30,097 nt of DNA from Cochliopodium minus (taxonomy: Eukaryota > Discosea > Himatismenida > Cochliopodiidae). The notes below the pieces were generated by a model. That model saw only the letters and a program-made list of their open reading frames with translations, had not been told where the DNA came from and did not search any database. The stretch is taken from contig JAMYWO010000174.1 of the NCBI GenBank assembly GCA_024220525.1, forward strand, positions 1-30,097, in the 5' to 3' direction. The position numbers and the translations under genes are program-made. Shown here one piece after another: positions 1-28,845 of the stretch (position 1 is the stretch's first letter; every line of letters starts with the position of its first letter).

Positions 1-140
1 GAAGTAAAAGTATATAAATAAAAAGAAAATATAAAGTAAAAGTATATAAATAAAAGAAAATATGAAGTAAAAGTATATAAATAAAAAGAAAATATAAAGT
101 AAAAGTATATAAATAAAAGAAAATATGAAGTAAAAGTATA
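1..140. repeat. Minisatellite R, copy 1 (31-32 bp units)
   Basis: About four and a half units of 31-32 bp alternate in two variants (each unit contains gtaaaagtatataaataaaa). On the minus strand the array lies inside a channel-gene intron whose donor is at 170-171. The same array, in the same orientation, occurs at about 20051-20120. The array runs off the left edge of the window, so its full length is unknown. Confidence 0.9.
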
Positions 141-171
141 AGAGTAAAAATATTGAAATATCTAATGTTAC

Positions 172-1634
172 CTCCCACTCTCAAAACACAACGAACTCCA
201 TAATCCACTGCATATGCTATTTTAAACAAAGTATTAAAAAAGATAACAATAAAATAATAAAATAAATTAAAATATCAAAGATTGAGTAATGAAGAAATTA
301 AATAAAATAATTAAATATTAAGATTGCAGTATTGAAGAAGTTAACTGATACAATTAAATATTGAGATTTCAGTATTGAAGAAGTTAACTGATATAATTAA
401 ATATTAAGAGATTGATAATAAATAATATATAAGATTACAAGTATTGAAGAATAAGGTTATTAAAGATTACAATATTGAAGAAAGAGAGAAGAGTTTTGAT
501 AAGAGGAGGGAATGGAAAAAGAATTTCCGGGCCATTTTTCTAAATATGCTAAAAATATATATATACATGCCACCCAATGTACCACCAATCCCAACATCAC
601 TATCAATTGTCCCAGTCTTATCCATGACACAAACCTTTAAAAAAATAAAATTTAAATAATAATAGAATATTTATATAAATATATTAATATATATATTAAT
701 ATATTTATAAAATATAAAATATAAATATATTAATATATTAATAAAATATAAAATATAAATATATTAATATATTAATAAAATATAAATGTTACATTAATGA
801 AGAAATACCTTATAGTGTTGTGTCTCCAAGATTGGAATATTTCAGAGAAATGAAATAAACGTAAAAAAATTAAAACTCTGGGAATTGAATGCACCCATGT
901 AAATAATCCTATCAAACTTAAAGGACAAGATATGGAAGCCATCAAATCTACAACAAACCTGTTGAACAAAAGAAATGAATTTGAAATTTTAATTAAAAAA
1001 AAAAAGAAATTACCAAGTTCTCAAATAATTTTTGGCAATCAGCCTTTTGTTTTTGATCAAGAAACCATCAAGATAATAAAAAGTGTGAAATCTTAAAAAA
1101 ATGTCGCACAAAAAGAAAAAGTCTCCAATAAAATCGAATGCCAACAAAATATATGTTGATTCATTTCTTTTCCATGAATCTCTGAAACATAATCTCAATG
1201 GAACTACAACACAATTGTAAATAGTGAAAATCCTGAAAAAATAAAAGGAAGAATGATAAATATGAAAATAAATTTAAAGATTTTACATTATAATCATATT
1301 CCACCACAATCTCCTTTCTCTTCTAAAAGGATCCCTCAATCTAAATTTAAATATATTAAATATTAGCTAAGTAACGGAGGAAAAATATTTATTTTTACCT
1401 TTGTAAAAAGGATTTCTTGTACTTTTCTTTATCTTTTTTGATCTTCTCTTCCTCTATCGATTTTTACAATATAAAATATTTAAAAACTTTTATCTCTTTA
1501 CTTTGTTTGACATAAGAATCTATATCTATAGTTTCCAAATTGTTTGCATTTATTTTGAAATCCTGTGGTATAGGTAGATATCTGCTCTTTGTTGTTTTTT
1601 GAATTAATTCAAATTCAAGAATATCATTCTTCAT
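172..1634 (-). CDS. Cyclic-nucleotide-gated-type cation channel, 5' half (S1 to pore helix)
   Basis: Eight exons, 5' to 3' on the minus strand: 1634-1502, 1453-1399, 1340-1287, 1232-1014, 958-809, 634-567, 548-471 and 216-172. They give 267 codons plus one base. A charged N-terminus leads to RLRDPFRRERRLWW before S1. S1-S3 carries the CNG/HCN-like pattern LCDIFLRFHTFYYLDG followed by LIAKNYLRTWFVVDLMAS. S4 is the IPRVLIFLRLFHF region, S5 is LIVMLGLVVHWVA, and the pore helix is YAVDYGVRCVLRVG. The coding sequence stops at a phase-1 donor inside minisatellite R. The matching phase and the rest of the protein are found only at 20027-17354, so this is half a gene in this arrangement. The start ATG (1632-1634) follows an A-run. 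The start and exon 7 are the least certain parts. Confidence 0.85.
217..470. repeat. Degenerate tandem repeat in a channel intron
   Basis: This intron of the channel gene contains two clear copies of a unit of about 44 bp (cagtattgaagaagttaact followed by gatacaattaaatattgaga), plus decayed copies near 430-480. On the minus strand each copy resembles the 5' splice-site neighbourhood of the exon ending at 471. The array probably grew by duplication of the exon-intron border. Confidence 0.7.
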
Positions 1635-1764
1635 TTTTTTTTTTTTTATAAATTATTTTTGTAAATTTCACAAATTTTGTCACCCAATTTTCAACACCAA
1701 TTTCAAAAAGAGGAAGAAAAAGGAGATGAGAAATAAAATAAAATTTAATTAATTAGTTGAAGTC
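1635..1764. other. Short spacer between two minus-strand genes
   Basis: 130 bp separate the stop of the DH-PH-RhoGAP-LIM-RasGAP gene (1765) from the channel start (1634). The sequence is AT-rich. I see no further gene or RNA in it. It must hold the 3' end of one gene and the promoter of the other. Confidence 0.6.
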
Positions 1765-4700
1765 TTATTTTTTCTTCTCTAGCACAGAGAGGATGGATTT
1801 AAGAAGGTTTTGATCATTAGGGCCATTCTAAAGAAAAAATGAGTATAAAGTCAAAGAAAAAAAAAGAAAAATGGCTTTTTACAAGATTCTCTTTAAAATT
1901 GGGAATTCTGACAGACAATTCTTCCTTGATTTTTTCCAAAAGATTAGGAGGTTTATAAGGTTGATTAAAAAAGAGTTGATTAGAAGCAGAAATGTTGGAA
2001 TAGTCCACCACGCTGATTTGTTGGATAAACTTGTCAAAATCTTGTTTACGTTTTTTCAAAATAGATTCATTGGCAAATTGCAAATAAACTTCTTTTTCTT
2101 CGAAAAATACTCCATTTGATAAATTTTGAATTATTTTCGAAATGAGCATCAGAATACGTGATTGATTTGGTGCCAATGTTGTTCCTTGTGGAAGTAACCC
2201 AAAAGTATGTGGTGCTACGATCGCAGGGCAAATGAATCTCAGAAATATGTATCTTTTTTTCAAAAAAATAAAAATAAAAATAAAAATAAAAATAAAAATA
2301 AAAATAAAATAAAAATGAAAATGAGAATAAAATAAATTTTATATAAATTAATTAATAATTAATTTTATATAAATTAATTAATAATTAAATAAAATGAAAT
2401 ACCCTCCAACAGCAGAAGAACCACTTTTATTGTATTTGGTGATAACGTTGATGTACAGAGTTTCACAAATTTGACGAATGGTGAAAGGAACAGAGTCAAT
2501 AGAGTTGAAAATAAAAGTTAAAAATTGATTAGTCAACATATCTATAATGTGTTGATTTTCTTGTATCGTTTTTTCGTCCAATGTCGCCTTACGTGGATCT
2601 TTAAATAATAAAAAATAAAAAATGAAAAAGTAAAAAAGTAAAAATTAAAAAAATTAAAAAAAATAAACACATTTGAATGTGGAAGAAAATAACAGAATAA
2701 TTTTACCCAATTCAATGACTTGATCAGTTTTGAGGATGAGGGACATAGGATCTTTCAAAGAAGCAAAAAGAAAAGGTATTCCAACAAAATTTGTGAAATT
2801 TTTCATCAGTTTCGTTGCTAACGTATTTCCTCTAAAAAGTGTTCCTATAAAAGAATATATTATAAAAGATTCGTTATAAAAATTAAATATTTTTTAATTT
2901 ACTTAATTTTTCATTATTTAATTTTTTAAAATTTTTTTATATTTTAATTAAAAACGTACCAGAGGAACTGGACTTTGCAACTTCTTTTTTCACAAAAAAT
3001 TTTACAAGATCAATCGTTTTTCCATGTAAATCAAACAATCTACCATCAAAAAAAAAAATAAAAAATTAATTAAAAATAAAAAAAAAAAGGAAAATAACCT
3101 TAATAAATTATTTGCAAGTTCATCACTTCCCGCTCCAACTGCATCCGATATCTCACGCAGAAAACAGCAATCACGTTGTAATAAAAGATCAAGAAGAGGA
3201 TTACTTTTTCAAAAAAAATTATTTTTAAAAAACAAAAAGAAAATAAAATGTGGAATAAAAAAAAAAAGTTCACAAAATTTTTCAAATCAATAAAAAATAA
3301 TAATTTTAAAATTCTTATATTTTTTTCGTAGCCTTTCCTCAAACAAATCAAAAATAAAAATAAATTTTGTTCTGTCCCAGGTAGATTAAATCAAGATCAA
3401 AAAAAAAAAATAAAGAAAAGAAAAAATAAAGAAAAGAAATAATAAAGAAAAGAAATAATAAAGAAAAGAAATTAATAAAGAAAGAAAAAATAAAGAAAAG
3501 AAATTAATAAAGAAAGAAAAAAAATAAAGAAAAGAATTAAACCTTTTTTCAGTGGGGGTATTTTTTTGTAGTTTTTTATCAATGGAAGGTTTGATGAGAG
3601 TACAGGTGTTACAAAAAAGGATTCCATTAACTAATGAATAATTTTCTTTTTCCATTTCACTTTCCAAAGAAATTCCACATTTTGAACAAACGCAACATGC
3701 TGCGTGATAATTGTCTCCACTTTTACTTTCTATCGTTTCTCCTTCTATTGGACTGAAACAGATCAAACCTTTAACAAAAACAAAAAAAAATTAATCTTTT
3801 TCCGTGAAAATTTTGAAAATTATTTATTTTGATACATTAATTTGAAAATTATTTATTTTGATACATTAATTTGAAAATTATTTATTTTTATACAATATTT
3901 TTAAAAATTATTTATTTTGATACATTAATTTGAAAATTATTTATTTTGATACATTAATTTAAAAATTATTTATTTTGATACATTAATTTAAAAATTATTT
4001 AAAAGTGTTCAATAAAAAATTGTTTCAATAAGTTAAAAAATTATTTGTTTTTATAATTTAATTAAATATGTTAATTTTAAAAAAATTAATTATTTAAATA
4101 TGTTAGTTTTTAAAAAATTGATTATTTAAATGTGTTAGTTTTTAAAAAATTGATTATTCAAATGTGTTAGTTTTTAAAAAAATGTTAAATTTAAAAAACT
4201 AATAACTGATTATATTTTTTAATGAAAAAAAAAAGAGGTACATCTAACTCCATACAATTTCGAGTAGTCAGCAACACATAAAATGAGAGCATTTTGTTCC
4301 ATGTAACCATACTTTAAATTTCTTGGACAAAGTGTACATTTCCTTTTTTTTGTAAAAAAATTTTGATATTTTTTCTTATTTACTTTTTATTAATTATTAT
4401 TGTTGTTATTTTTATATCATTTCAATTTTTTTAAAAAAATACCAGAATTTTTTTTCTTAAATAAAATTATTTCATTTATTATTATTTAATTCATTTTATT
4501 ATTTAATTTATTTAATTTGTTTTATTATTTAAATTGTTTTTTTTTTAATTATATTTTATTATTTAATTTATTTTATTATTTAATTTATTTCTTATTTAAT
4601 TTATTTTCTTGTTCAATTTATTTTCTTATTTAAATTATTTTTTATTATATTTTAAATTTAGGTATCAATTTTTTTTTTAAAAAAAGAGAATTATACATGC

Positions 4701-7700
4701 AATCAACATGAAAGAGATACTTGGAGGTGGTGGCGCAAATTTCGTCATTCATAAGTGGCTTGTTACACTCATTACACTTGTAAACAGGATTTTCGGTGTT
4801 ATAATTTTCTCCTTTAAATAATAAATATATAAAATAAAAATTAAATTTAAAATAAAAAAATAAAAAATAAAATAAAAAATTGTTGAAATAAAATAAAATA
4901 AAATAAATAAAATAAAATAAAAATAAAAATAAAAATAAATTAAAAAAAAAATCTAATTTGAAGAAATAAATAAATTAAAAATTTAAAAGAGAAAAAGGAA
5001 ATAGAAACCTTTAGGGTTAAGGGGAGACTGTAAATGATCAGGAGGTAAACGCTCAAGAAAGGATTTGGAATCGAAAGTGAAGGGGACAGGTGTTTTGAAA
5101 TTGGCAACAACTTGACGAGTGAGAAGATCAGTTGAGGAGACTTTTATTGGAGGAGATATGTTTCTTTCAAATACTTCCACAAAATTCTCCATTAAAAATT
5201 GCACTCCTCCATAGATGCTCTCATAATCAAAATTTCTCCCTTTTTTCAAATGAATTAAAAAAAAATGATAAAAATAAATGACTTAATGCGACACATTTAA
5301 AAATTGTTTAAAAAAAAATTTAAAAAAAAAAGTATCTTTTAAAATAAATAGGATATATTTTAAAATAAATAGGATATATTTTAAATAAAAAGGAATTCCT
5401 TTTTCTAATATAAAATTCATTTCTTAAAAATAATTTAAAATTCATTTCTTAAAATTTTTGAAATGTAAATTTTTTTTTTTTAAAAGATTAAAATTGATTT
5501 CTGATTATGAAAAATTAATTTTTGAAATAAAAACAATGAAAGTTCAAAAAAAAGAGTACCCATGTGATTCTCCTTGGTACGAGGTTCAGGGCAAAGGATA
5601 CCACAACCCAAAGAAATAGCAAGAGAATTGGAATCAATTTTGTTTTTTTCTTTATGAAGAAGGAGAAGTGAAAAAAAATCAAACAAATAAATCAACAAAT
5701 CATATCTGTATCCCTGTAATTTCCTCAATATTTCCTTTTTTTAAAAAAAAAAAATTTAAAACAAACCAAGATTAAAGATGAATTAATTGGATTATTTAAA
5801 TAAAGATAAATGTGTTAATTAAAGATAAATTAAATAAAAAAAAGAAAATAATGATGAATTTAAAGATTAATTTTAAAAGATAAATGAACAAATGATTAAT
5901 ATTGAGATAAATGAATTTAAAAAGATTAAGATTTAAAGATTAATGAATTTTAAAAGATAAATGAACAATTGATTAATATTGAGATAAATGAATTTAAAAA
6001 AAAGATAAAGATTTAAAGATGAATGAATTTAAAAAGATTTAAATCAAAAGATAAATGAATTTAAAAAGATTAAGATTTAAAGATAAATGAATTTAAAAAA
6101 AGAGGGAGAGATACATTGATCTTTTTTGATTTGGCAGAAACAGAGTCTTGAGATTTGATGACAAGGGTGATGGGATGAAATAAATCATAAGAAACAACAG
6201 GATCAGGTAAAGAACGAATGAAATTTTTCAAAACTTCACCAACCGTATCTGTTGCATAATCTGTCACATGTATCATTGCTCCTCTGTTTATTGATTCTAT
6301 CACAAAATTACTTTCATTATTTTCATTTTCTTTTATCATTATTCTTGATATGTCCAATCCAAATTGTTTTATGTTTTCTACCAATGTTGTCACCAACTCT
6401 ATTATCTCCAACCTAAATTTTATTTAATATTTCATACGAATTTATTAAAACAAATAAAACAAAAATAAAAATAAATAAAAAATAAATTATCAATAAAAAA
6501 ATGAAAAATAAAATAAAAATTCATGATTAAAAAAATAATTTTTTTTCTTTAATAAAATCAATTTTTTATTATTTTTTATTAACAATATTAAAATAAAAAA
6601 TAATTAGCAATTATTTTCTGCGAAAAATGTTTTTTTACCCATCATTCTCTTTTTTCTTCATGAGGACATCAAGAGAGACACCAAAGTACTTGGTTTTGAA
6701 AACGTTATTAATGGAACTTTTCAAAGACAAAATCCAACGAGTTCTAGAGTTTTCCACTTCTGCATCCATTTTCATCTTTTCTTCATCATGTATTAAATCA
6801 AAAGATACTTCGTTTTCAAATTCCTATTTCAAACAAAAATTTTTAAAAAATATTAATAATGATAATTTAAAATAAATAAATAAAAATCAAGAAATAAATT
6901 ATAAGAAAAAATTTTACTTCAATCTGTAATTTCTCAACGTAATATTTTTTACGGAAACTATATTTGTTGGGGACGGACTTGTTGGGTTCAGCAGAAATGA
7001 GGATGTCATTAAATAACCACCAATAAGTCGGGATTTTTTTTTTCCCTTTTAACTCGTGCAACAGACCTCTTTGTAACAAAATTCTTCCTGGTACTGCCAA
7101 TTTTTCCTAATTTATAAAATTTTTTTTGATATTATTTTGAATCTATAATTAGATAATATATATTATAAGATTATAAATAATTATAATATAATTCAAAATA
7201 TAAAAAATATATTATAAATATAAAATTAAAATCTTCAAAGATATAGAAAGGATATTTAAAAAAATAAATTTCAGAAAAAATTATGGAAAGATAATTACTG
7301 TCAAACCAGTGATCTCAGTGGATAACTTTTCAATTTCAGACATGGATCTACTCTCACCAGTTTGTTCCTTTAATTCACCAAGTTCAAAGATTGCTTTTTC
7401 AAGATATTGATAATCAGGATCAGAAGATTCTGTCACCTTTTTCAATTCTTCCAATTCTATTTGATATTGAGTGATTCTATTAAGAGGAAAAGTCAACAAA
7501 ATATCAAAAGGAATTCCGGGACAATGATTGCAATTTTCCTTTCCATTTTCCAAGAATTCAGTGAACCAGGTGTTCTTTTTCAATTCAGAAACTTCTATTC
7601 TCGCATTTCTCCAATTATTCAGATAATAGGAATAAATTCTCAAATTCGGAATCTTGAGATAAAAATAAGATTTAATTTAAGATTATTTTATAATAATTAG

Positions 7701-8555
7701 AAGAATAAAAAAATTTTAAATAGAAAAAGCAAAAGAAAATTTTTTTTTTTTTTTTACCAAATTCCAAAAGAGTGTTCCAACCAAACAATATTGAGGTTTT
7801 TTCTTCAGAATGAAAATTTCTTTAACAATGGTGTTGTGCAATTTCCAAATTTGTTCAATATTTGCAAATAAATTCAAAACAGAGAGTGGTTTGAGACTCT
7901 TGGATGATTTGATTTTCTTTTTTTCAAAATTAAGATTTCCCACACTCAATCTTTCTTTATAAGTTTTGCAAATAGAAAAGAGTTTGCTTATATAATCGGT
8001 CTCTGAGGAGATGATCCTGGCAAGGATTTCTATTCTTTGATGAATGAATTGATTTGATCCAGTAGAATTGGTTTCTTTGACTATAGGAGATATAGTCCAT
8101 TGATTATTAATATCCTTTGTCAAAGTCAATCTTCTTTTATTCACGTAGACAATGATTTTGTTAGTATTTGTTTTTATTGCCTCATTTTTGTTTTCTTTCA
8201 ATTTATCTATTTCATCAAATAATTGTGGAGAGGAAGATAGACTATAGGGGTTTTGTATTTCATCATTTACTGTATTTTCATCTATATTCTCTTCTATCTG
8301 AGAATTTTCATTTGAGGGATTGTTCCCTTTGTTATTCTCATACGTATCATAATGAGAAAATTCTTGTAATTTATTTTCTATTGATGAAAAAATGGATTGA
8401 TCATCCAACTCTTCTGTTTTTAAGTCTTCATTGAATTCCATACTGGCTTTCCTCGAATTTATTGACTCGATCAATTTTAATACTTCACTGACTTCTTGTT
8501 CATTAAAAGAGATGCTAATAAGGGATTCCTTGATTATATTCAAGACAGAATTCAT
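1765..8555 (-). CDS. DH-PH-RhoGAP-LIM-LIM-RasGAP multidomain GTPase regulator
   Basis: Sixteen exons, 5' to 3': 8555-7758, 7652-7299, 7106-6918, 6823-6639, 6412-6115, 5734-5560, 5239-5009, 4811-4697, 4342-4242, 3768-3543, 3203-3099, 3039-2960, 2844-2707, 2598-2403, 2252-1883 and 1827-1765. Together they give 1,207 residues with every splice phase consistent. Order: acidic leader (1-165); RhoGEF DH (about 171-384); PH (about 385-500, GRILLQRGLL and WWLFNDILIS); RhoGAP (about 494-680, VGEVLKNFIRSLPDPVV); two complete LIM zinc fingers (about 752-870, e.g. CNEC, HVDCMKCTLC, HAACCVCSKC, CNTC); RasGAP (about 890-1187). The RasGAP keeps the arginine finger (TLFRGNTLATKLM) and the FLRFICPAI motif, so it should stimulate Ras GTP hydrolysis. 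The RhoGAP GIFR loop is altered (DISR) but retains an Arg. By family knowledge the protein would load one Rho-type GTPase, switch off another, and switch off Ras. It shares a 156-bp spacer with the divergent ataxin-3 gene. Confidence 0.9.
2265..2312. repeat. (aaaaat)n microsatellite in an intron
   Basis: A run of aaaaat units lies within the RasGAP intron 2253-2402. The intron also contains two copies of aattttatataaattaatta at about 2334-2385. Confidence 0.8.
3823..4005. repeat. Intronic minisatellite, about 29-bp unit
   Basis: Five to six copies of a unit containing gaaaattatttattttgata sit in the intron 3769-4241 between the two LIM exons. The copies differ by a few substitutions, so the array is not perfectly homogenised. 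Confidence 0.85.
4060..4200. repeat. Second intronic tandem repeat, about 34-bp unit
   Basis: Roughly four copies of a unit with aaatgtgttagtttttaaaa and attgattatt follow the 29-bp array in the same LIM intron. Copies decay toward the edges. Confidence 0.75.
5760..6110. repeat. Intronic degenerate repeat between RhoGAP exons
   Basis: The intron 5735-6114 is filled by loosely repeated blocks such as gataaatgaatttaaaaaga, gattaagatttaaagat and gaacaattgattaatattga. No coding signal is seen on either strand. Confidence 0.7.
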
Positions 8556-8711
8556 ATTTCTTTTGAATATTTTTTAAAAAGAATAGTATTAATATTTTTT
8601 TTTTATTTTCAAATGAATTTTAAGTTCTTGGATTGAAATAAACTGCTTTGAAAACATCAATGATGGTTCTGAATTTCTTTCCAAAATAAAAAAAAAAATC
8701 GAACTTCAAAA
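8556..8711. promoter_or_regulatory. Divergent spacer, RasGAP-family gene and ataxin-3 gene
   Basis: 156 bp separate two start codons that point away from each other, so both promoters must lie here. The sequence is AT-rich with a 12-A run. I recognise no named element. Confidence 0.5.
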
Positions 8712-10293
8712 ATGAATAATAAAGATGGTATATTGATTTATTGGGAGAAACAAGAGGTATTTATTTATTTCTATTTTATTTTTTCACATTAAATAAATTC
8801 AAGGCTGGATTATGTGGAGTTCATTGTGTAAACAGTAATCTTTTTTTGATCATAATAAAGTTTTATTTTAAAAAATATTTAAAATGAAAATAGCCCTTTT
8901 ACAAGGTCCTTATGTAACCGAAATTGAATTAGCTCAAATAGCTTTGAAATTGGACGTAAAAATTATCAATTAAAAATGAATATAAAATGTTTATTTCTTA
9001 AAAAAGGATAATGAAAAATTGTTGATGAGAGAAAATGGGACAGAATCTGAAGATTTTCTAAAATTCATGGCAGAAGAAAGTGGAAACGTTGCATTAGATG
9101 GGAATTATAGTATTCAGGTATTATCGGAAGCATTAAAAGTATGGGATCTAAATTGTATTTCAATCACTTCAAAAGAAGAATTCACCAAAGATATAAAACA
9201 AAATCCCTCCAAACAACAAGGATTTATTTGCAATCTTGTAAACTTTTGTTTTCAATTTAATTTTTTAATCCCCTTTTTTATACCTCCATAAACAAATAGG
9301 CTGCTCATTGGTTCACAGTCAGAAAGATTGAGGGTCATTGGTGGAATCTTAATAGTCTTTCGGAAGAAGGTATGATGTCTATTTTTTTATTTCATGGAAA
9401 CATATTTTTAACGAGGAAAAAAAAAACTAACATCCATATTGTTATTTTCATTTGGTGTATACAATTGGAATCGCAATTACATATTTATTATTTTTAATGA
9501 TTATTATGAAAGGACCTACTTATGTTGGTGAACTTTATTTGACTGCAATGCTTGATACATTAGTTCTTGAGGGATATTCTATTTTTGTTGGTAAGAAAAT
9601 CAAAATTTGATTCTTGATTTGGTTTTTATCCAAAATTAGAGATGACCCTAATTATTATAATTCACTTAATTCTTTTTTTTTCCAAATTTGATTAAAAGTA
9701 CAAGGAAATTTTCCACAAACTAATTCTAGTCTTTCAAATTCATTTACGATGGGGAGAGGGAAATGGCTAAACAGATTTCCTCCTGGTCAAAAACAGCAAC
9801 CAAAGAATAATCCTTTTTCCACTCCTGGACACCGATTGGGAGGAGATAATGATAATAACAATGGTGGTGGTGAAAATATGACAGATGAAGATATTGAATT
9901 CCAAAAAATCTTGGAATTATCCATGCAAACTGCCAAAGAAGAAAAACTTTTGAAAATTAAAGATGAACCGGAAAAAGGTATTAATTCTTTTATTTATTTT
10001 TTATTATTATTTTTTATTCATTTGTTTTATTTCTTTTATTTCTTTTTATTTTTATTCAAAAAGGTAAGGATGTCACTGAACTCTCCATACAAACACCACT
10101 CGGTAATTTCAAACGCAGATTTCTAAAAACAGACAAAACGGAAATATTGTATTCTTATTTGGAGGCTAACGGGATTGATTTCAATATGTACAAGATCTCC
10201 ATCAATTTTTCAAATGATGTTATTGATCGCGAAAAAACTTTTGAAGAGTCCAAGTTACATCCTAGATCCGCTTTGATTGTCAAAAAGAACTAA
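8712..10293 (+). CDS. ATXN3: Ataxin-3-type Josephin deubiquitinase with UBX domain
   Basis: Eight exons: 8712-8756, 8804-8834, 8894-8955, 9007-9237, 9300-9369, 9513-9590, 9699-9977 and 10064-10293, giving 341 residues with consistent phases. The Josephin catalytic set is intact: Gln in WEKQE, nucleophile Cys in AGLCGVHCVN, His in AAHWFTVRK and Asn in WWNLNSL. SGNVALDGNYSIQVLSEALK matches human ataxin-3 closely. After it come a Gly/Asn/Pro-rich linker with NPFSTPGHRLGG (resembling the SHP box that binds Cdc48/p97), a UIM-like helix DEDIEFQKILELSMQ in which the usual Ala is replaced, and a C-terminal UBX-like domain (TPLGNFKRRF to SALIVKKN). It should trim ubiquitin chains at Cdc48/p97. There is no polyglutamine tract. 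A 31-nt exon carries the catalytic Cys. Confidence 0.93.
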
Positions 10294-10480
10294 AAAAAAA
10301 TTAAAATTATCTTTTTCTGAAAATATTTGTCTTCATCTGGAATATGGTAATAAAATAATTTTCACAACATTAATCACAAATAATAGTTTGAACAAGAATA
10401 AGGAGAAGATATTAAATTTTCGGTCAATTTTATGTAAAAAATAAAAAAAAATCACAAAATAAAAAAAATTGTAACTTGAA
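10294..10480. other. Spacer between ataxin-3 and WIPI-like genes
   Basis: 187 bp of AT-rich sequence between two plus-strand genes. No ORF, RNA or repeat could be supported. It should contain the 3' end of the deubiquitinase gene and the promoter of the next. Confidence 0.5.
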
Positions 10481-11195
10481 ATGCACTTTAATGATAATAT
10501 AAATTCTTTGAGATTTCATTCCAATCGCACACGCCTATTTGTTGCCACCACAAAAGGATTTGCAATAATAGATTTGTCGAATAAGAAAGAAAAATTGGCA
10601 GATACAAGAAAAATAATCAATAAAGGGATCTCTATTGTTGCCCAGATGGGAACTACAGATAGAATGGGATTGGTGGGTGGCCCTATAGAGCCTTATGAAG
10701 GAGGAAGTTTTATTGGATGGGATGATAGGTGAGTTTTATTGTTACTCTTTCCTATAATTTAGCCTTTTTTTTAAAAAAATATTCTTACAAAATTAATTCA
10801 CATTTTTAGGCATTCTGAACATGAATTTGCCAATCTTAAAAGTATTAATGATAAAATCACTGATATGAAAATCGAAAATGAAAAGTAAAAGATATGTTTT
10901 TCCCTTTATTTTTTTTATTTCTAATAAAATCTAGATTGTACTTAGGTGTGGTTGATAAATTGTACATTTATCAATTTCCCTCAATGAAAGAATCTTTGGA
11001 GGGTATTTTTTTTACTTTTGTTTGATTGAAATTTAATTAAATATTTAATAATTACTCTTTCCATTTAGTTTCATTTTATAACACTGAAAATGAAAGAGGC
11101 ACATTTGACGTAAAAGCAGAAGGGAAAAGAGAGATATTTTCCTATCTTTATTCCAAAAATAGTTTTCGTGTTTATGATCTCGTATCTCAACAAAG
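10481..11195 (+). CDS. WIPI/Atg18-like beta-propeller protein, 5' part
   Basis: Exons 10481-10728, 10810-10884, 10935-11002 and 11069-11195, with consistent phases. The last ends at a donor 113 bp before the N gap. The start (MHFNDNINSLRFHSNRTRLF) and blades such as LFVATTKGFAIID, LVGGP, GGSFIGWDDR and LYLGVVDKLYIYQFPSMKESL follow the PROPPIN pattern. PROPPINs bind phosphoinositides on autophagosomes and endosomes. The F/LRRG lipid-binding motif is not in the visible part and would lie in or beyond the gap. The third exon's end could be 11001 or 11002; phase favours 11002. It could instead be another small WD-like propeller. The family call is moderately sure. Confidence 0.7.
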
Positions 11196-11213
11196 GTATT
11201 CTTTTTTAATTTT

Positions 11214-11308
11214 ATATTTTTTATTTTTTTATTTTATTTTTTATTTTTTATTTTTTATTTTTATTTTTATTTTTATTTTTATTTTTTATTTTTTATTTTT
11301 TATTTTTT
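11214..11308. repeat. (attttt)n microsatellite at the edge of the gap
   Basis: A long run of atttttt/atttttatttt units in the WIPI intron leads straight into the Ns. This kind of sequence commonly stops short-read assembly. Confidence 0.9.
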
Positions 11309-11746
11309 NNNNNNNNNNNNNNNNNNNNNNNNNNNNNNNNNNNNNNNNNNNNNNNNNNNNNNNNNNNNNNNNNNNNNNNNNNNNNNNNNNNNNNNNNNNN
11401 NNNNNNNNNNNNNNNNNNNNNNNNNNNNNNNNNNNNNNNNNNNNNNNNNNNNNNNNNNNNNNNNNNNNNNNNNNNNNNNNNNNNNNNNNNNNNNNNNNNN
11501 NNNNNNNNNNNNNNNNNNNNNNNNNNNNNNNNNNNNNNNNNNNNNNNNNNNNNNNNNNNNNNNNNNNNNNNNNNNNNNNNNNNNNNNNNNNNNNNNNNNN
11601 NNNNNNNNNNNNNNNNNNNNNNNNNNNNNNNNNNNNNNNNNNNNNNNNNNNNNNNNNNNNNNNNNNNNNNNNNNNNNNNNNNNNNNNNNNNNNNNNNNNN
11701 NNNNNNNNNNNNNNNNNNNNNNNNNNNNNNNNNNNNNNNNNNNNNN
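11309..11746. other. Assembly gap (438 N)
   Basis: Unknown bases. The WIPI-like gene loses its 3' part here, and the next sequence begins inside a different open frame. The order and distance of the two sides rest only on scaffolding. Confidence 1.
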
Positions 11747-11896
11747 TTCAAACCTGTAAATGGTACTTTTCCTTCCCTTATCAACAAAGCAACCAAAAAA
11801 AGACTCATCGAGAAAAAAGAAAAGTCATTAACCCATTATCCCCATTTGGAGACGAACCAGGGTCTTCATACCCTCTTTAACAATGGAGACTCGTAA
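11747..11896 (+). CDS. Unrecognised C-terminal tail (49 residues), partial
   Basis: An open frame from the gap edge to TAA at 11894-11896 has balanced codon use and more G+C than the introns around it. It begins FKPVNGTFPSLINKATKKRL, is basic, and ends NNGDS. It does not look like the end of a WD propeller, so it need not be the continuation of the WIPI-like gene. I do not recognise a family, and it may be non-coding. Confidence 0.35.
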   Translation, partial: FKPVNGTFPSLINKATKKRLIEKKEKSLTHYPHLETNQGLHTLFNNGDS

Positions 11897-12061
11897 CCCT
11901 TGAATAGACATTAATAATAATAAAGGAATCTTTTTCTTCAAAACAAACTATCTTTGGAAAATCCAGAGTGTTGGTAGAGAATACTGGTAAAAATTGATAA
12001 AAGCAGGAATGGAAAGTAACAAAAACTTTAAAGTTGAATGAAAGGGCGAAAGAAAAACTTA
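11897..12061. other. No gene seen
   Basis: Sequence of mixed composition between the unrecognised tail and the kinase pseudogene. It may be decayed 3' flank of either. No convincing frame was found on either strand. Confidence 0.4.
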
Positions 12062-13297
12062 TTAAGTATTACAAATAACGTAATTAAAAAATAATTTAAT
12101 CCTTTTCTTCAAAATCTTGAGAATTTCTTGCGCAGTGGGCCTATTGTTTGGGTCTTTGGACAAACAAGATTCGATCAAAGGATTTAGTCCTGTCATTTTC
12201 TTTTCTATTTCGTTGATGATCCACTTATGGTACTTAAATAAATAATCGTATACAGTTATTTTCAATAACTCTTCCTCTAAGAAGAAAGAGGATGACAAAA
12301 TTTCTGCCAAACAACCCCAAAAGAATAAATGTCTGCCGAATAATCGTACAAATCGTTGATTAAAATTTGGAGTTTGAATGATTTTTGTAAAATTTAAAAT
12401 AATGTGTATTAAATTTAACAAAAAAATGAAAAACCATTGTATTTTTTTGTAAACCTAACTTGATTTTGGGCTTCACATCTGTGACAATCTTGTGGTAACT
12501 GACTCCAAAGTCCCCAACAAGACACGTAAACTATTGTTTCATTAAATAAATTTTTTTAAGAAAAAAAAAAAAATACCCTTTCTTGAAAATGACAAAAATG
12601 TTTTCAGGTTTTATGTCGTTATGGATGATCCCGTTGGAGTGTAAAGACTGATTCCTTTCACTATTCCTTTGGCGTACCTGAGACTTATCATTGTGGGAGG
12701 TTTGAAGATTTGGTATGATGGCAGACAATGTTGTATCAGCCTTTTTTAAAAAAATTAAAATTTAAAAAAAGATTTAAATAATACAAAAATCAAGTAAGCT
12801 TCGTCTTCAACAGTGATAACATCCAAAAGTTTTACAATATGTTTGCTTTCAATGAAGAGTGCACTCTATTTCATTGACCAATCTTTCTTTTGGAAATCTT
12901 CTCTTATGTCCAATTTCTTTACTGCAACTTTCAGGTGGGAATAAGTTGATCTTTTGATAAAAAATAAATAAAAAAACAATTTAATTCCAAAATAATATTT
13001 GTTACGCTCTTTTTTCTGAAATTTCTAATTATTTTTTTAAAAAATTTTAAACATTTTTAAAATAATTTCTTAATTACGAAAGAAATTTTTACTAATTTTT
13101 CTCTTCTTGAGAATCATCAATTTCTTCAATTTTTCTCAAATAAAATTTTTGTATTCGGCAAACCACACGTTTTTGTGCCTTTGTTTACCCAACTTCAAAA
13201 GTTTAAAAAACTTGTTTGTTTGTTGGAAATGTATCTCTGTTAAAAAATTACAAATTGGCTTTCTGAAACTTGTTATTTCCAACAATTTAACGTTCTA
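12062..13297 (-). pseudogene. Decayed protein kinase gene
   Basis: Almost every kinase subdomain can be found in order on the minus strand, but in shifting frames. They are a Gly-loop region with lost glycines and NVWFAEYKN (13146-13172); VAVKKLDIREDF (about 12928); NEIECTLH of helix C; ESKHIVKLLDVITVEDEAYL; the catalytic loop HNDIKPEN (12600-12623); VGDFGVSY (DFG at 12503-12511); SADIYSFGVVW (12316-12336); and CLSKDPNNRPTAQEIL (about 12119). Adjacent motifs lie in different frames in at least four places, and internal stops occur. It was probably a Ser/Thr-type kinase of the host. HND replaces HRD. Sequencing error alone is unlikely to cause so many breaks. No functional product is expected. 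Confidence 0.8.
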
Positions 13298-13340
13298 AAT
13301 GTTAAAATAATATTGAATATTAATAAAGGTATATTTATTA

Positions 13341-15911
13341 TTAAATACTTTTAAATTTTATTTTTACTTTGATATAATTAGAGTTAGAAGAGATCCAACC
13401 CTTGAGTTGAGCAGCCTGCTTTCCGATCTTAGTGAGGGTATTCACATTGTGTTGGATAGAACTCCAGAAGAAATCTTGATGGTATTTAGTCACCTTCTTT
13501 TTGATTTTTTCTTTCATCTCGTTGAAAATTTCCTTCAAGTTCTTCTCTGTTATTTTCTCCTTAACTTCTTTCACCAAATGATCTTTTTTTGTTTAAAAAA
13601 TAAAAAAAGGAACTGAATAAAATTTTAAAAAAAAAAAAATAAAATTATCAAATTTAAATTTTTAAAAAAAATAAATCAAAAATTTTTACTCAAAATTTCG
13701 ACTAATCCATATTCCTTTTTCAATTCCATCAAGTTTAAGCTCTTTCTGACATTAAAAGTTTTGATCAAAAGTTGAGAAATGAGATTTTTCATGTAATCCA
13801 AATTAATCTCCTTTTCCATACTCTCAATCTTTTTCACCAAAAATTTTTTTGTTTCAACAATTTTTTGTTCTAAACTTATTTTTAAAATTGGATTAAATAT
13901 TTTATTTTATTTTATTTTATTTTATTTTATTTTATTTTATTTTATTTTATTTTATTTTATTTCATTTTATTTTATTTTATTTTATTTTATTTTTTTACCT
14001 CATAAAATCAACAAAAAGAAGTCCGTCAGTGAGAAATTTTTCTTTCTCTAAAATATCAAAGAATTTATTGTGGATGGATCCCATGCTCTCAGCTCCCATT
14101 GAAAACAAACTATTCACAATTTCTCCGTTTAAAGAATTATTCGTTTTGCTGGAAAAAAAAATTTTTTTTTTTAATATAAAAATTAATTTTAATTAATAAA
14201 ATAAAAAATATGTAAAAAGCGAACCTTTTAAAAGAATCAATGAGATCTTTGGAGTACTGGTCATCAAAGGCCCGAGAAAAAAAGGTGTAAATAGAAAACA
14301 AAGTGGCCTGTTTTTCGTGGATCTTTTCAAAGATGTGGCGAATCTTTTGATGCAAAGTGAAAGAGAAGAAGTTGTGGCATTTTTGTAAATTATCGTAGAA
14401 AGAATTTTCTTTTTTTTTGAAATCAAGGAATACGATGTCGTACACCCTTGGGAAGAATCCAAGAATTTTGGTTTCAATCATGGCTTTTGTCTTTTCCTTT
14501 TTTATGCAATTTCCCCAATTTGTTACTACCACCATCACTTTTTATAAAAACATTTAAATCACATAAAAAAAGAAATTAAAAAATATTTTAAATTCAAATA
14601 AAACAATAGAAACATTGAAAAAAAAATTAAAATATAATTACCAGACTTATTCTTAAAATTTTTGAGTTCATTAAATGTTTTCTCAAGACTTTCAGAAATA
14701 CCAGGGTTTTGAGAGTTGATAACCAAGAAAATACCATCAGATTTCTTCACATTGAAGTAAGCCATCTTTCTTGATAATTCCCTATGATCATTAATGCCAG
14801 GTCCATCCAATAAATTTACATTCTGAATAAATTTGGAGGGAGTCAATATTTCTAGCATTCCGCTTGGGTTCTTCTCGAAGATCGCTCTCACTGATCTTCT
14901 CACTTCTTCTTTTGATACTTCTTCGTTCTCCTCTGTTTCATCTAATGTCTCATTTTCTTAAAAAAATATAATCAAAATGATTTTCATTTTAAAATAAAAA
15001 AATAATCAAAATATTGGACAACTTTGTTAGCGGATATTAATTTATAACTAACAAATTTTGAACTTTTGTAAAGTTTTGAACATCTCTATCAAAATATTGA
15101 AAATTTTTATTTAAAATTGAAAAATATATCATTTACCCTCAATGTTTATGATTTGGGGACTCTTTTTGGTATCATTTATTTTGGAGATGAGATCCTTCAG
15201 ATCTGTGTTTCCCTTATCATTCTCGAGGAGGATATCTTGGAGGGATTCATCATTTCTTGTATTCACCAGACAATAATAGTTCTTATCATTCAATGAGAAA
15301 GTGATTCTGATGGATCCCAGAGTATTCATACACATTCCAGTTGGCAGCACCTTATATCCAATCAAAGCATTCAATAGTGTGCTCTTTCCCGAGTTTATCT
15401 CTCCTATTACTGTCACATTGATGAAGGTATTCATCTTCTCCTTTAATTCTATTAATTCTTCCTTGATTGGTTGCAAGATACACGAGGTGGATGGATTGAT
15501 ATCAATTGAATTTATCATCTTTGTGATCATATTAACCATTTGGGAGATGCGGCTCATCTTGTTTTCTATATTGCATACATAATATTTTATTGCCTCATCA
15601 AATTCATCTCTATTGCATTCCACCTTACATTTTTTTAAAAATTTATTTGTTCATTATTTTACATTTCTTACCTTTATTTCTTTTATGATTTTTTCTTTCA
15701 CTTTCAATTCCAGCGGATCCTGCTTCAAGAATGTTTCCCAACCACTCTCGACTAGATTGTAAACCCTACTTTGCTTTTTGAAGATTAAATCGAAACAATT
15801 TTTTCTCAGATTGCAAATTTGCTCCACTTTAGTGACTAAATCTTGATAATCTTTGATGACAAGAGGGTAAAATGTATCAAGATAATCAATATCAATATCA
15901 TAACTTTTCAT
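13341..15911 (-). CDS. Dynamin-like large GTPase
   Basis: Seven exons, 5' to 3': 15911-15672, 15623-15137, 14956-14642, 14537-14225, 14148-13999, 13874-13690 and 13582-13341. They give 643 residues and all phases agree. A helical N-terminus precedes the P-loop GEINSGKSTLLNALIG (about 154-162). Switch I is LPTGMCMNT. G3 is LLDGPGIND (about 293), where dynamins usually have DTPG. G4 is VVVTNWG (about 351-356), which lacks the usual K and D of NKxD. The rest is helical and Lys/Glu-rich, with no clear membrane anchor. Family members remodel membranes. The overall pattern resembles bacterial-type dynamin-like proteins more than classical dynamin, and the weak G4 suggests altered nucleotide specificity. 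It is divergent to the four-pass membrane gene, 64 bp away. Confidence 0.82.
13893..13996. repeat. (ttttatt)n microsatellite in a dynamin intron
   Basis: About twenty near-perfect copies of attttatttt fill the intron 13875-13998 of the dynamin-like gene. On the coding strand it forms a purine-poor A-rich tract next to the donor. Confidence 0.9.
15010..15092. mobile_element. MITE-like palindromic element, copy A
   Basis: About 83 bp within the dynamin intron 14957-15136. It holds inner inverted repeats tttgttagcg and aactaacaaa around an AT core. Its outer arms pair loosely: ggacaactttgtt on one side, and ttttgtaaagttttgaacat on the other. A homologous element in reverse orientation lies at 26610-26697. 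It has no coding capacity. Confidence 0.65.
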
Positions 15912-15975
15912 TTTTTTTTTTTTTCAAAATGAAAATTCTTAAAATTAAATTAAATTAATAATTAAAAAAAAAAAA
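15912..15975. promoter_or_regulatory. 64-bp divergent promoter region
   Basis: Only 64 bp separate the start codons of the dynamin-like gene (minus) and the four-pass membrane gene (plus). The spacer is flanked by an A-run and a T-run. Both transcripts must start here. Confidence 0.55.
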
Positions 15976-16551
15976 ATGAATTTTTTGAGAACAAATTATT
16001 ATACACCATTAGCCTCATCTATTACCATCTTGAGTGTAACTCAAATGGGAGTGTACATTTATTATGCAGTAACAGATTCGATCTCCAAATTGAATTTGAA
16101 TTACTACAATTCCAATGTTCATGGTGAGTGGTCTTACTTTATATTGATCTCACATATCTCAATGGGAATTTTTCTTGCGATTTGTGGATTGATTGAACTT
16201 GGAATAATCATCAAGGCATTTTATCATCTCTATTGGAAAGAATATCATCTCTCAAATCTTCCCAATAACAATGATATTAATCCTATTGTTTCTCAAAAAT
16301 TAAAATATATTTCCTGGATCTATTTTCTTTTCACATTCACTGGATTCAAATTTCTGATTATAATCTTGCACGCTATCCCAAACATCTTTACATTCAAAGA
16401 AAATAAACAAAGCGATTATATAATTCCCCATCTCTTCCTCTTTTTAACTAATGCCATTAACTTTCTTGCACTTATTTTTCTCCTTGGTGAAGAAAGAAAT
16501 GATGAAAAAGATTTGAATATCTCAATAGATGGTGAATTAATAAATGTTTAA
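15976..16551 (+). CDS. Four-pass membrane protein, family unknown
   Basis: A single-exon gene of 191 residues. Four hydrophobic segments are visible at about 14-35, 53-80, 110-135 and 150-168. A loop of about 30 residues between segments 2 and 3 contains NLPNNNDINP, and the tail is acidic. There is no signal peptide distinct from the first segment and no cysteine pattern of tetraspanins. The next gene is a diverged tandem copy: IELGIIIKAFYH matches LLESILITKALYH, and GFKFLIIILHAIPN matches GIKLVIAIMQSIPN. It lacks introns, unlike nearly all its neighbours. I do not recognise a function. Confidence 0.75.
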   Translation: MNFLRTNYYTPLASSITILSVTQMGVYIYYAVTDSISKLNLNYYNSNVHGEWSYFILISHISMGIFLAICGLIELGIIIKAFYHLYWKEYHLSNLPNNNDINPIVSQKLKYISWIYFLFTFTGFKFLIIILHAIPNIFTFKENKQSDYIIPHLFLFLTNAINFLALIFLLGEERNDEKDLNISIDGELINV

Positions 16552-16606
16552 AAAATTTAAAATTTTTTTATTTTTTATAAAATAATAATAAAAAAAAAAA
16601 TTAGAA

Positions 16607-17216
16607 ATGAAAACTTTAAATCCAAGAAAATCATTCACTTCTTTGTGGATATCAATTTTAATTCTTGTAAATGTTCCAATGGTATTCTTTACTTTCTATG
16701 GGCAAAGAGATTTAAGATTTTTAATCAATGGGGACTACACTTTGCAATCAAAGTGGATAAATAAATTCTATATTGTTGTTGATTCAATTATGATGATTTA
16801 TTGTTTGTTGGAATCCATTTTAATCACAAAGGCACTATATCATAAATAAAGAAAAGAAAAAAAATGACAAAATGAAATTTCAATCAGAAAGTGATTCTCT
16901 AGAAATTATTCATTCTCAATTTTTTGAAAATGAAAATGATTCATCCAATCATTATTTGAAGTTTCTTCAATTAATCCAAATTCTAATTTATCTCTCAGGT
17001 ATAAAATTGGTTATTGCCATCATGCAATCTATTCCAAATAAAGAAAGTAAAGATGGGATACTTCCCTCTATCTTTTTAGTGATGTTCTCATTGGTTGGGT
17101 TTCTCTTTTACTTGTTCATCCTTTCCAAAGAATTGAAATTTAACTCCACCTACACTAAAAAGGGGTGTTGTACTTTTGATTTGAAGCTTAACAAATACTT
17201 GAAAATAAAAAATTGA
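16607..17216 (+). pseudogene. Tandem copy of the four-pass membrane gene, split by a frame break
   Basis: Two consecutive frames, 16607-16849 (80 residues) and 16872-17216 (114 residues), together cover the whole length of the preceding gene. The first ends right after KALYHK, and the second resumes with the loop and segments 3 and 4. The shift falls in an A-rich stretch (16847-16871) with no GT-AG intron to bridge it. The tail differs and ends Lys-rich with a CC pair. Either this is a recently broken paralog or the assembly has a small indel there. Two separate half-proteins are the less likely reading. Confidence 0.65.
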
Positions 17217-17353
17217 TAATTACAAATTATTTTTGTTTTGAACTCTTTCACTTCTTCTCTCTCAATAATATTCATTTGTAGCATTGAAAAGAAGATTTTG
17301 AGAGAAAGATTATTTTTTCTTTGGTTTTTTCTATAGAAATCTGTCTATAAAAT
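17217..17353. other. Spacer between convergent genes
   Basis: 137 bp between the 3' ends of the membrane-gene copy and the channel 3' half. No gene is seen. An imperfect inverted match (tcactt...tctctc and gagagaaag) could reflect 3'-end signals. Confidence 0.4.
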
Positions 17354-20027
17354 TTATTTTAAATTTTTTTTGGTAAGAAATTCAATGAATTGCAAAGAAG
17401 AGGAAAACAATTTTTGAGATTTATTGTTTAAATGAAAGAGTTGTTCTAAAGAAAAGTGTTTGAGGTTTTTCTCAAAGTTTTCAAGTAAAAGATCCATATC
17501 TTTCAAAATATTTAGTGATTCTTCGTTAAGTTGGGAAGAAATGAAAGAAGAGTGTAACATTCTTTCTTTTTTTCCTTTTTCGCAAATTTCCAAAAAAGAA
17601 TCCCACAAATTATTTTCAAATCCATAATTCCCTTTTATTTCTTTTAATGCTTCATAATCCATTTCCATTAACACACTATTTTTCTTTGCAACCAATTTCT
17701 TTTCTTTTAAATATATTAATCATTTTATTTAATTTTTGAAAAAGAAAATGTTTTACGAGAAAGGCCATCCTTTAACATTTTTGTGTTTCCAACCAAAGAG
17801 AATGCTCCTTCGATTAATACTGGCTTTTCTAAATTACTTTCAAATGAATAAATTAAAAAAATGAAAGAAAATAAAATAATAAAAATAAAAAAGAAATTGT
17901 TTATTATTATTTAGAAATAATTAGAAAAAAATAATTAAAATAAAATAATTAAAATAAAATAAAATAATTAAAATAAAATAATTAAAAGAAATTGTTTATT
18001 ATTATTTAGAAATAATTAGAAAAAAATAATTAGAAAAAAATAATTAAAATAAAATAATTAAAATAAAAAAGAAATTGTTTATTATTATTTAGAAATAATT
18101 AGAAAAAAACCTGGTGATTTCAATTTCTCCATCAATGAGAAAATAAACAGAAGAAATAGTTTGATTTTCCCTGACAAGAGTTTTGTCAGTGTTGTAAATT
18201 TTGAAATCTTTAAACTTTTCAATGAAATGATTGCATTGTTTATCTGGATATTTTTCATATTCCAAAAACTTATTTTTAATTTTCCTTTTCATTTCTCTCG
18301 TTTTTGCTTAAAAATTTTTATTGAAAAAAGAATTAAGCAATAAATAAGAACATCAATAAAGAATTAAGCAATAAATAAGAATATTAATAAAGAATTAAGC
18401 AATAAAGAAGAACATTAATAAAGAATTAAGCATGAAATAAGAATATTAATAAATAAAGATAAATAAAAGATGAATAAAGTAAGAATAGATTAATAAAAAA
18501 ATAATAAAGAATATAATCAAAATATTAATAATTATTTACCTATTGATTCTACATAGACTTTCATTTTAACAAAGTTTTTGATAACTAATTTCAAATAAAA
18601 AATAAAAATAAATAAAAAAAAAAATAAAAATAAAAATAAAATAAATATAAAATAAAAATAAAATGTAATATAATAAAATATAATAAAATATAATAAAATA
18701 TGATAAAAATAAAATAAAATTAAATAACAAAAACAAATAAAATAAATTAAAAAAGGGGTAGAATAATATAGAAGAGTAGTGAGGTATTTTTTTACTTTCG
18801 ATAAAAATTTTTTTATTGACAACAAAAAGTTCAGTAGGAGTGAGAGCTTCAACACTATATTTTCTTTTATTTTTATTTCCTCTTTTTTCTATCATAAATT
18901 CTTCCCCAAAAAAATTCCCCTCGTTCACCACTTGATATGTATTTATTCCATATTCACTTTTTTAAATGACAAAATAAAAAAATAAATAAAAAAGAAATTT
19001 AAAAAATAAAATTAAAATTATAATTTAAATTATAATTTAAATAAAATAAATATAAAAAATTTTAATTTGTAAAAACAAAAATTAATGAAAAAATTATTTT
19101 AAAAAAAAAAAAAAAAATTGAAATTTTACTCTTTGATAGCCAGGTCACCACGAATAACAAAATAAATATCATTACAAGCATCTCCATGCATGATAACAAA
19201 ATCTCCTTCTTCGTGTATTTCCCTTTGAAGAAACGGAATTATCTTATCCCTAAATTCCACTTTTTTTTTGAATTATAATCAAAATAAAGAAAATAATCAA
19301 AATAAAGAAAATAATATTATAATCAAAATAAAGAAAATAATATTATAATCAAAATGAAGAAAATTTTTATTTTTTATTATCTATTTTAAATTACGATCGC
19401 TTTTGAAAAGAGGAATGTTATCAACCAAACATAAATGTATTTCAGCAATTATATCATTTTTTAATTTATGAGGAAACATTTCTAATATTGTTTTTTCTTC
19501 TGACAACACTCCTACAAAAATTTAATTATTATTTTTTAATTTTCAATAAAAATAATAAATAATAAATAATAAATAAATAATATAATTAGAATAATAAATA
19601 ATAATTAGAATAATAAATAAATAATAATATAATTAGAATAATAAATAATAATAGAATCAATTTTAGAGGAAGAAATACCCTTGGAATATTCGCGAGAAAT
19701 GAATTTTCGAAGACGACGGGTGAGGGGTTTGGTTAATTTTTTACGTTGACTGAAATGATTTAAACGTTGAATTTTAGAATCAAAAAGTTGTTTTTCAGGA
19801 TCAAATTGATTCATCAAACTCACCACACTTCCTATTATCAATGCACTCAAAAATATTATTATTGGTCCTTCCATGTTTACTATCGCCTTTTCTTTGAAAA
19901 TTTTTTTTATTTTTTTATTATTAATTTATTTATTTTTAATTTTTAATTTATTATTTTTTATTTTATAAATTGAATTTTAAAAGAATTTTTTATTTACCCA
20001 AAATGGTGACAGGAGGAGGAACACTTC
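17354..20027 (-). CDS. Cyclic-nucleotide-gated-type channel, 3' half (pore, S6, C-linker, two cNBDs)
   Basis: Nine exons, 5' to 3': 20027-19998, 19891-19679, 19511-19395, 19259-19130, 18956-18796, 18557-18540 (an 18-nt microexon), 18306-18111, 17836-17757 and 17703-17354. They encode 431 codons including the stop. The first exon begins in phase GA and reads GSVPPPVTIL, the CNG pore exit (compare GETPPPV). Then come S6 (IIIFLSALIIGSVVSLMNQF), a C-linker (KPLTRRLRKFISREYSKG) and cNBD1 (GDFVIMHGD, DIYFVIRGDLAIK, FFGEEFM, RKYSVEALTPTELFVV). A second, more degenerate cNBD follows (VYFLIDGEIEIT, GAFSLVGN, KKLVAKKNSVLMEM), without a clear FGE/Arg cassette. Its upstream acceptor lies at the edge of minisatellite R. 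Added to the 172-1634 exons it makes a complete 698-residue protein, with phase matching exactly. Confidence 0.87.
17870..18110. repeat. Intronic minisatellite, about 60-80 bp unit
   Basis: Three copies of a block containing gaaattgtttattattattt then agaaataattagaaaaaa fill the channel intron 17837-18110. They are spaced by (aattaaaataaa) units. The last copy abuts the splice donor. Confidence 0.85.
18318..18450. repeat. Intronic minisatellite, about 32-bp unit
   Basis: Four copies of aagaattaagcaataaataa followed by gaa(c/t)attaata occupy the channel intron 18307-18539. Confidence 0.85.
19265..19372. repeat. Intronic minisatellite, about 30-bp unit
   Basis: Copies of aatcaaaataaagaaaataa tattat sit in the channel intron 19260-19394. 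A related AT tandem (ataataaataataattaga) fills the next intron at 19550-19660. Confidence 0.8.
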
Positions 20028-20050
20028 CTTTATAAAGATAAATTAAAGTA

Positions 20051-20120
20051 TAAAAAGAAAATATGAAGTAAAAGTATATAAATAAAAAGAAAATATAAAG
20101 TAAAAGTATATAAATAAAAA
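20051..20120. repeat. Minisatellite R, copy 2
   Basis: Two full units and a partial unit are nearly identical to 1-140, including the two-variant alternation and the same orientation. Just to the left is the acceptor of the channel pore exon (20028-20029). To the right follow (ataaaaa)n and then the PP2C exon. It marks the breakpoint of two genes. Confidence 0.9.
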
Positions 20121-20247
20121 ATAAAAAATAAAAAATAAAAAATAAAAATATAAAAAAAAGTAAATTATAAAATAATAATAAATTAAGAAAATGTTTATTA
20201 AAAAATTAAATTTTATGAAGATTTTAATTTTTTTTTGTTAACAAAAG
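20121..20247. other. Low-complexity stretch before the PP2C exon
   Basis: (ataaaaa)n followed by AT-rich sequence ending in the acceptor acaaaag. It reads as the 3' part of an intron whose upstream exon is not in this window. No coding sequence is seen. Confidence 0.6.
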
Positions 20248-28536: not shown

Positions 28537-28583
28537 GTATTAATTTTTTTTTTTGTTTTTTTTTTTAGTTTTATGATTCAATT

Positions 28584-28665
28584 TTTTGAATTTTTTATTT
28601 TTTATTTTTTATTTTTTATTTTTTATTTTTTATTTTTTATTTTTTATTTTTTATTTTTTATTTTN
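28584..28665. repeat. (ttttta)n run ending in a single N
   Basis: An array of attttttatttttt units ends at an undetermined base (28665). The next base begins a different tandem repeat in another reading context. This is a probable unresolved gap or misjoin. Confidence 0.85.
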
Positions 28666-28845
28666 AATACTACTAACAATAATACTACTAACAATAATAC
28701 TACTAACAATAATACTACTAACAATAATACTACTAACAATAATACTACTAACAATAATACTACTAACAATAATACTACTAACAATAACACTACTAACAAT
28801 AACACTACTAACAATAATACTACTAACAATAAGACTAATACAATT
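28666..28845 (+). repeat. 15-bp coding minisatellite (NTTNN)n
   Basis: About twelve nearly perfect copies of aatactactaacaat encode Asn-Thr-Thr-Asn-Asn. A single T-to-C change recurs in two neighbouring copies (aacact), which suggests duplication of a variant unit. Confidence 0.9.

Follow-up and report, generated by a model that had tools for sequence, protein, structure and literature searches.

A circularly permuted channel gene in a draft contig of Cochliopodium minus, very probably an artefact of joins made at repeats

Introduction

How does a gene come to lie in a contig with its second half in front of its first? The question is raised by a stretch of 30,097 nucleotides from Cochliopodium minus (Discosea, Cochliopodiidae; assembly GCA_024220525.1), which forms the first part of contig JAMYWO010000174.1 (C174, 87,784 bases) and is called the window below. 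It holds one cyclic nucleotide-gated (CNG)-type channel gene in two parts, both on the minus strand: the 5' half at 1634-172 and, on the wrong side of it, the 3' half at 20027-17354. A preliminary description of the locus had argued that the ends 1 and 20120 were once adjacent and had offered three causes: integration of a circle of about 20 kb, a tandem duplication, or an assembly path error through a minisatellite combined with a wrong join over a gap. The evidence gathered here speaks strongly for the last of these. The permuted gene is very probably an artefact of the draft assembly, in which C174 would be chimeric, with wrong joins at repeats, and the channel gene itself ordinary and linear.

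The left end of the window is the contig's own base 1, and the window stops exactly where a run of N begins (C174:30098-38371). Its G+C content is 24%, its genes are intron-rich, and it contains N at two places, the 438-base gap 11309-11746 and one isolated N (28665). The assembly that was searched comprises 44.65 Mb in 598 contigs; counts from pattern searches over it are lower bounds.

Results

The two parts of the channel gene

The features on which the argument starts are the following.

172..1634, minus strand: 5' half of the CNG-type channel gene, from S1 to the pore helix (model, phases and splice sites; Ion_trans; CNGA2 match of the joined protein)
1634-1502, 1453-1399, 1340-1287, 1232-1014, 958-809, 634-471, 216-172, minus strand: channel exons 1-7 (hand-made model)
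17354..20027, minus strand: remaining channel exons 8-16, which make up the 3' half (20027-19998 ... 17703-17354) (model; cNMP_binding)
1..140: minisatellite R (period 31, 4.4 copies) at the very start of the contig, within the intron that follows exon 7 (repeat and pattern searches)
20050..20119: second stretch of R, in the intron that precedes exon 8 (2.6 copies in the Tandem Repeats Finder row for 20050-20132)

The gene model was made by hand, and the precise ends of its first exons are a matter of judgement. It comprises 16 exons, seven in the 5' half and nine in the 3' half, with all 15 introns set at GT...AG, and it bears out the exons and the misplaced 5' half of the preliminary description. 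The joined model reads without interruption from ATG to TAA and counts 714 codons (713 amino acids and the stop), which slightly corrects the earlier sum of exactly 699. The break falls in phase 1 (G | GA), the phases of both sides agree, and the join reads RVG-G-SVPPPV, as had been described.

The joined protein behaves as a single chain. It matches CNGA2 in one alignment over residues 46-509 (E 7.5e-47), and Pfam finds in it both Ion_trans (72.4 bits, cut-off 25; positions 3-220 of the 241 of the model) and cNMP_binding (74.6 bits, cut-off 27.5). Searched separately, a previous model of the 5' half covered positions 10-148 of Ion_trans with 64.3 bits, and the 3' half gave one stretch of cNMP_binding as against two in the joined protein. 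Exons 8-16 cover the selectivity filter, S6, the C-linker, the cyclic nucleotide-binding domain (CNBD), a further CNBD-like stretch and the C-terminus. Exons 14-15 (17757-18306) resemble a second CNBD; the Pfam output gave no position for the second cNMP_binding stretch.

Two paralogues show the same order of parts without interruption. The one on contig C28 continues in a single open frame across the position at which the window gene is broken; at the join, residue 273, it reads ...YSYALNYAVRFVTRVGGTMADPVTTFSRAICDIEAIIII... against ...YSYAVDYGVRCVLRVG|GSVPPPVTILEKAIVNMEGPIII... in the window gene. In blastp the C28 paralogue aligns with the joined channel in one stretch over the join (55% over 71 amino acids), and with the halves alone in directly adjacent stretches (58% over 36 and 51% over 35 amino acids). 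Before C28:61087 the fetched stretch consists of N. The paralogue on C33 has both halves, in order.

No separate partner set for either half was found elsewhere in the assembly. The seven matches of the 5' query belong to the window gene (three), C33 (three) and C28 (one), and the nine of the 3' query to the window gene (four), C33 (one), C28 (two) and, weakly, C444 (two, 25% identity); a second copy of either half is not among them. Both half-introns contain R, and two pattern searches of the assembly placed it nowhere else: an exact 19-base pattern occurs at no fewer than six places, all in C174 (four starting at 4-99 and two at 20068 and 20100), and a 31-base pattern with up to three mismatches at three or more, again all in C174, its backward control giving one match. 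Bases 1-55 are identical to 20065-20119, and 52-118 to 20053-20119. Because the channel halves fit, R was found only at these two places and bases 1-55 recur at 20065-20119, the ends 1 and about 20120 belong together, as the preliminary description held; the splice phase and the paralogue alignment over the join lend this further support.

In and around the intron that separates exons 6 and 7 (218-325) lies a dispersed repeat of about 100 bases, with 14 matches of 75-82% identity in 10 other contigs.

The join at 20119

20112..20148: first putative false join, from R into a (TAAAAAA)n tract, 37 bases exactly common with the left-end tract of C469 (sequence comparison)
20248..20988, plus strand: PP2C-like gene, 3' half only; the 5' half is on C469 (minus strand, from about 1451 to 250) (paralogue queries, exon reading, splice phase)

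At about 20119 the intron of the channel gene passes into an intron of a PP2C-like gene, of which C174 holds only the 3' half: no 5' half was found in front of 20248 on this contig. Paralogue queries led to a candidate at the left end of C469, one of them by one of its four matches (1314-1451, minus strand, E 0.03) and another by two of its eleven (242-502, E 3.4e-10; 739-930, E 0.52). The last PP2C-like exon on C469 closes at 250 with GAA G|gtaaat; its intron reaches (TAAAAAA)n at the end of the contig, which shows this tract only and no R. On C174 the exon opens at 20248 with GA CTT CCT, preceded by ag; together they complete VKE-G-LPDMRNL, compared with SKT-G-EPDLRNL in a paralogue on C131. 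The cut is thus flanked by (TAAAAAA)n on both sides.

The halves fit each other across the site, and C174 holds nothing to the left of base 1. The joined PP2C-like protein aligns with the C131 paralogue in a single alignment of 321 columns (E 1.5e-48), the halves alone reaching 2.7e-24 and 1.1e-20. PP2C_2 scores 21.8 bits in the joined protein, below the Pfam cut-off of 24; no Pfam family was found in the 3' half alone at E<=0.01, nor in the 5' half alone at E<=1. A weak PP2C match also occurs in C551.

The join at the N gap

10481..11195, plus strand: 5' half of a PROPPIN-like WD gene, entering the N gap; the 3' half would run from C454:2660 onward (paralogue queries, splice phase)
11232..11308: 77-base tract of (TTTTTTA)n type ending exactly at the gap, equal to C454:2557-2633 and present also at C328:15650-15726 (sequence comparison)
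11309..11746: N gap (438), second putative false join, with a low-complexity left edge and a dispersed sequence of about 79 bases at its right edge (base composition, assembly search)

The gap interrupts another gene. A PROPPIN-like gene starts at 10481; its last exon on C174 ends in phase 2 at 11195, and an intron follows up to the gap. Its 3' half was not found in the window to the right of the gap, where the best paralogue match (16642-16809, E 0.011) has stop codons inside. A candidate lies on C454, which opens with 2,556 N (C454:1-2556). The first called bases of this contig are the 77-base tract, an exact end-to-start overlap with 11232-11308, and the exon starting at C454:2660 supplies the T of AG|T, in the fitting phase.

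Queries for the two halves point the same way. That for the 5' half has five matches in the assembly, on C174 and C414 only. The nine matches of the paralogue's 3' half are on C414 and C32 (one each), C454 and C452 (two each), C78, C99 and C264; C414 and C32 each have their own 5' end, and the matches on C452, C78, C99 and C264 are weaker. Joined, the PROPPIN-like protein gives one alignment with the C414 paralogue that spans the junction (E 4.5e-39); by themselves the halves reach 3.3e-24 and 8.5e-15. Pfam lists 17 families for the joined protein, among them PROPPIN (30.2 bits against a cut-off of 30) and, with 31.2 bits, a WD40 model that bears a different name; the 5' half alone has only a weak WDR55 match (18.2 bits).

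At the right edge of the gap, bases 11747-11825 (about 79) recur in C18 (97%) and C320 (94%), and the first 38 of them in C39.

Other features of the window

The isolated N, within 28560-28876, stands exactly between a (TTTTTTA)n tract and a (AATACTACTAACAAT)n array that reads as an Asn/Thr-rich protein; here, too, simple repeats were probably the site of a scaffold join. At C174:48377 and C33:161888 a single N likewise falls within or next to such repeats. On the minus strand at 14559-15650, open frames with a P-loop (GEINSGKSTLLNALIG) look, by eye, like a gene for a dynamin-like GTPase.

Discussion

What arrangement would reconcile the three interrupted genes? Very probably C174 strings together three pieces that do not belong in this order, P1 (1-11308), P2 (11747-20119) and P3 (20120 onward), wrongly connected at repeats. 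The real order would most likely be [11747-20119]-R-[1-11308]-C454 on one stretch and the reverse complement of C469 followed by [20120...] on another, and the permuted look would arise from P1 having been set to the left of P2 rather than to the right. One gene each backs the links P2-P1, P1-C454 and C469-P3, and the splice phase fits at all three junctions, which under random phases would happen about once in 27. The joins lie without exception in repeats or at the gap: R and (TAAAAAA)n at about 20119, (TTTTTTA)n and the N gap at 11309, the dispersed 79-base sequence at 11747. Wrong joins are favoured because each of them cuts a further gene whose other half sits at the end of another contig in compatible phase (C469 with C174, C174 with C454), and neither a circle nor a duplication is needed, since the resulting order is linear.

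The software step behind each join can be suggested only in outline. At the first, the channel intron may carry (TAAAAAA)n beside R, and the path of the assembler may have switched there to the matching tract of the PP2C-like intron. At the second, a scaffolder may have exchanged P1 and P2, which would be true neighbours with their orientation kept, for example by misreading the orientation of paired reads.

Several observations weigh against this reconstruction. Two of the three C469 matches that point to the 5' half of the PP2C-like gene are weak (E 0.03 and 0.52), and the join at 20119 contains no N and must hence have been made at the level of sequence, its course being a matter of conjecture. 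The 77-base tract occurs a second time (C328:15650-15726), and its reversed control pattern also gave one match. A length of 77 is a common assembler word length, and the overlap in the channel intron is 55 or 67 bases, not 77. Because the tract is not unique, the overlap alone is no proof of the link to C454; we dropped it as sole proof and kept it as support. The repetitive nature of the tract would itself give an assembler cause to stop at this point. The PROPPIN model, too, was dropped as proof: the C454 half alone already scores 27.8 bits, compared with 30.2 for the joined protein, and the model names the gene while adding little for the join. What carries the joins is splice phase, alignment to paralogues and exclusion. 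The leading 2,556 N of C454 could hide another 5' half. Finally, the assembly search found no true left neighbour of 11747, the edge matches in C18 and C320 being imperfect and that in C39 partial.

Among the other explanations, a circle of about 20 kb with the complete channel gene, broken open in R and inserted in the PP2C-like intron, would explain why R stands at both ends of the block and why PP2C-like halves lie on either side of the insertion site. It is set aside as very improbable, since the gene interrupted by the internal gap has a fitting other half on C454: base 11308 appears to continue there, so that the block has another partner inside it and need not be closed. The end of C469, moreover, shows (TAAAAAA)n and no R. 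We give as little credence to a real rearrangement on one allele, by which P1 and P2 were exchanged and joined to the PP2C-like intron while the other allele kept the ordinary order. The draft does support both sets of adjacencies, and real rearrangements can also strike simple repeats, but several breaks would be needed, all at repeats and one coinciding with the N gap, and the stretches of P1 and P2 that were searched gave no near-identical second copy, short repeats aside (the longest close one is the 79 bases in C18, 97%). That the organism holds both sets of adjacencies, with some chromosomes or a minority circle carrying the 20 kb block opened within R in the PP2C-like intron, we consider a slim chance; there the channel gene would be broken and the PP2C-like gene interrupted.

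Slimmer still is a tandem duplication of block 1-20120, collapsed in the assembly, which would likewise place 20119 beside 1: the right flank should then retain its ancestral form, yet the gene at that outer edge is not intact, the PP2C-like gene being cut with a fitting 5' half on C469. Two different truncated channel genes that came to lie at both places by chance are hardly conceivable, for even though agreement of phase alone would occur by chance in about one case in three, R was found only at these two places, no other partner of either half was found, and the joined protein runs collinearly with CNGA channels. Of the causes in the preliminary description, then, the path error through R with a wrong join at the N gap fits best; the partner on C454 leaves the circle unneeded, and the cut PP2C-like gene speaks against the duplication.

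Seen as the probable result of wrong joins, the locus should not be reported as a permuted gene, a DNA circle or a duplication, and the immediate use of this reading lies in correction of the assembly. The case also offers a cheap test for draft genomes that needs no reads: genes that are cut at a suspect join and completed at the ends of other contigs argue against that join.

How does the locus compare with known systems? With CNGA-type channels (PDB 9upf, 7o4h) the joined protein shares S1-S6, a pore with PPPV past the filter, the C-linker and the CNBD, collinear over residues 46-509, and it differs in an extra CNBD-like stretch and a longer C-terminus. Its filter reads RVGGS where CNGA2 has TIGET; the C28 and C33 paralogues have RVGG[ST], and CNGA1 and CNGA2 share IGET. 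The glutamate that follows the filter glycine in CNGA1 and CNGA2 is absent from the window channel and from both paralogues, and judging by these residues the ion selectivity of this family may differ from that of CNGA1 and CNGA2. Integrated extrachromosomal circular DNA would likewise yield a circularly permuted gene order, but the block in the window need not close, with base 11308 apparently partnered by C454. The closest likeness is to scaffold misassembly induced by repeats. The part of PMC9326850 drawn on here reports that reads misaligned at tandem repeats mislead scaffolders, and tests mate-pair libraries contaminated with short-insert pairs, where scaffolding errors arise as well. Its cases, as far as that part goes, are for S. 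aureus gaps of wrong size and a reconstruction that failed or stayed incomplete, and for simulated C. elegans libraries misassemblies together with biased gaps, unlike the error of order in C174. What C174 has in common with repeat-induced misassembly is the position of its breaks in tandem, low-complexity and dispersed repeats, one of them at an N gap, and the completion of the cut genes on other contigs.

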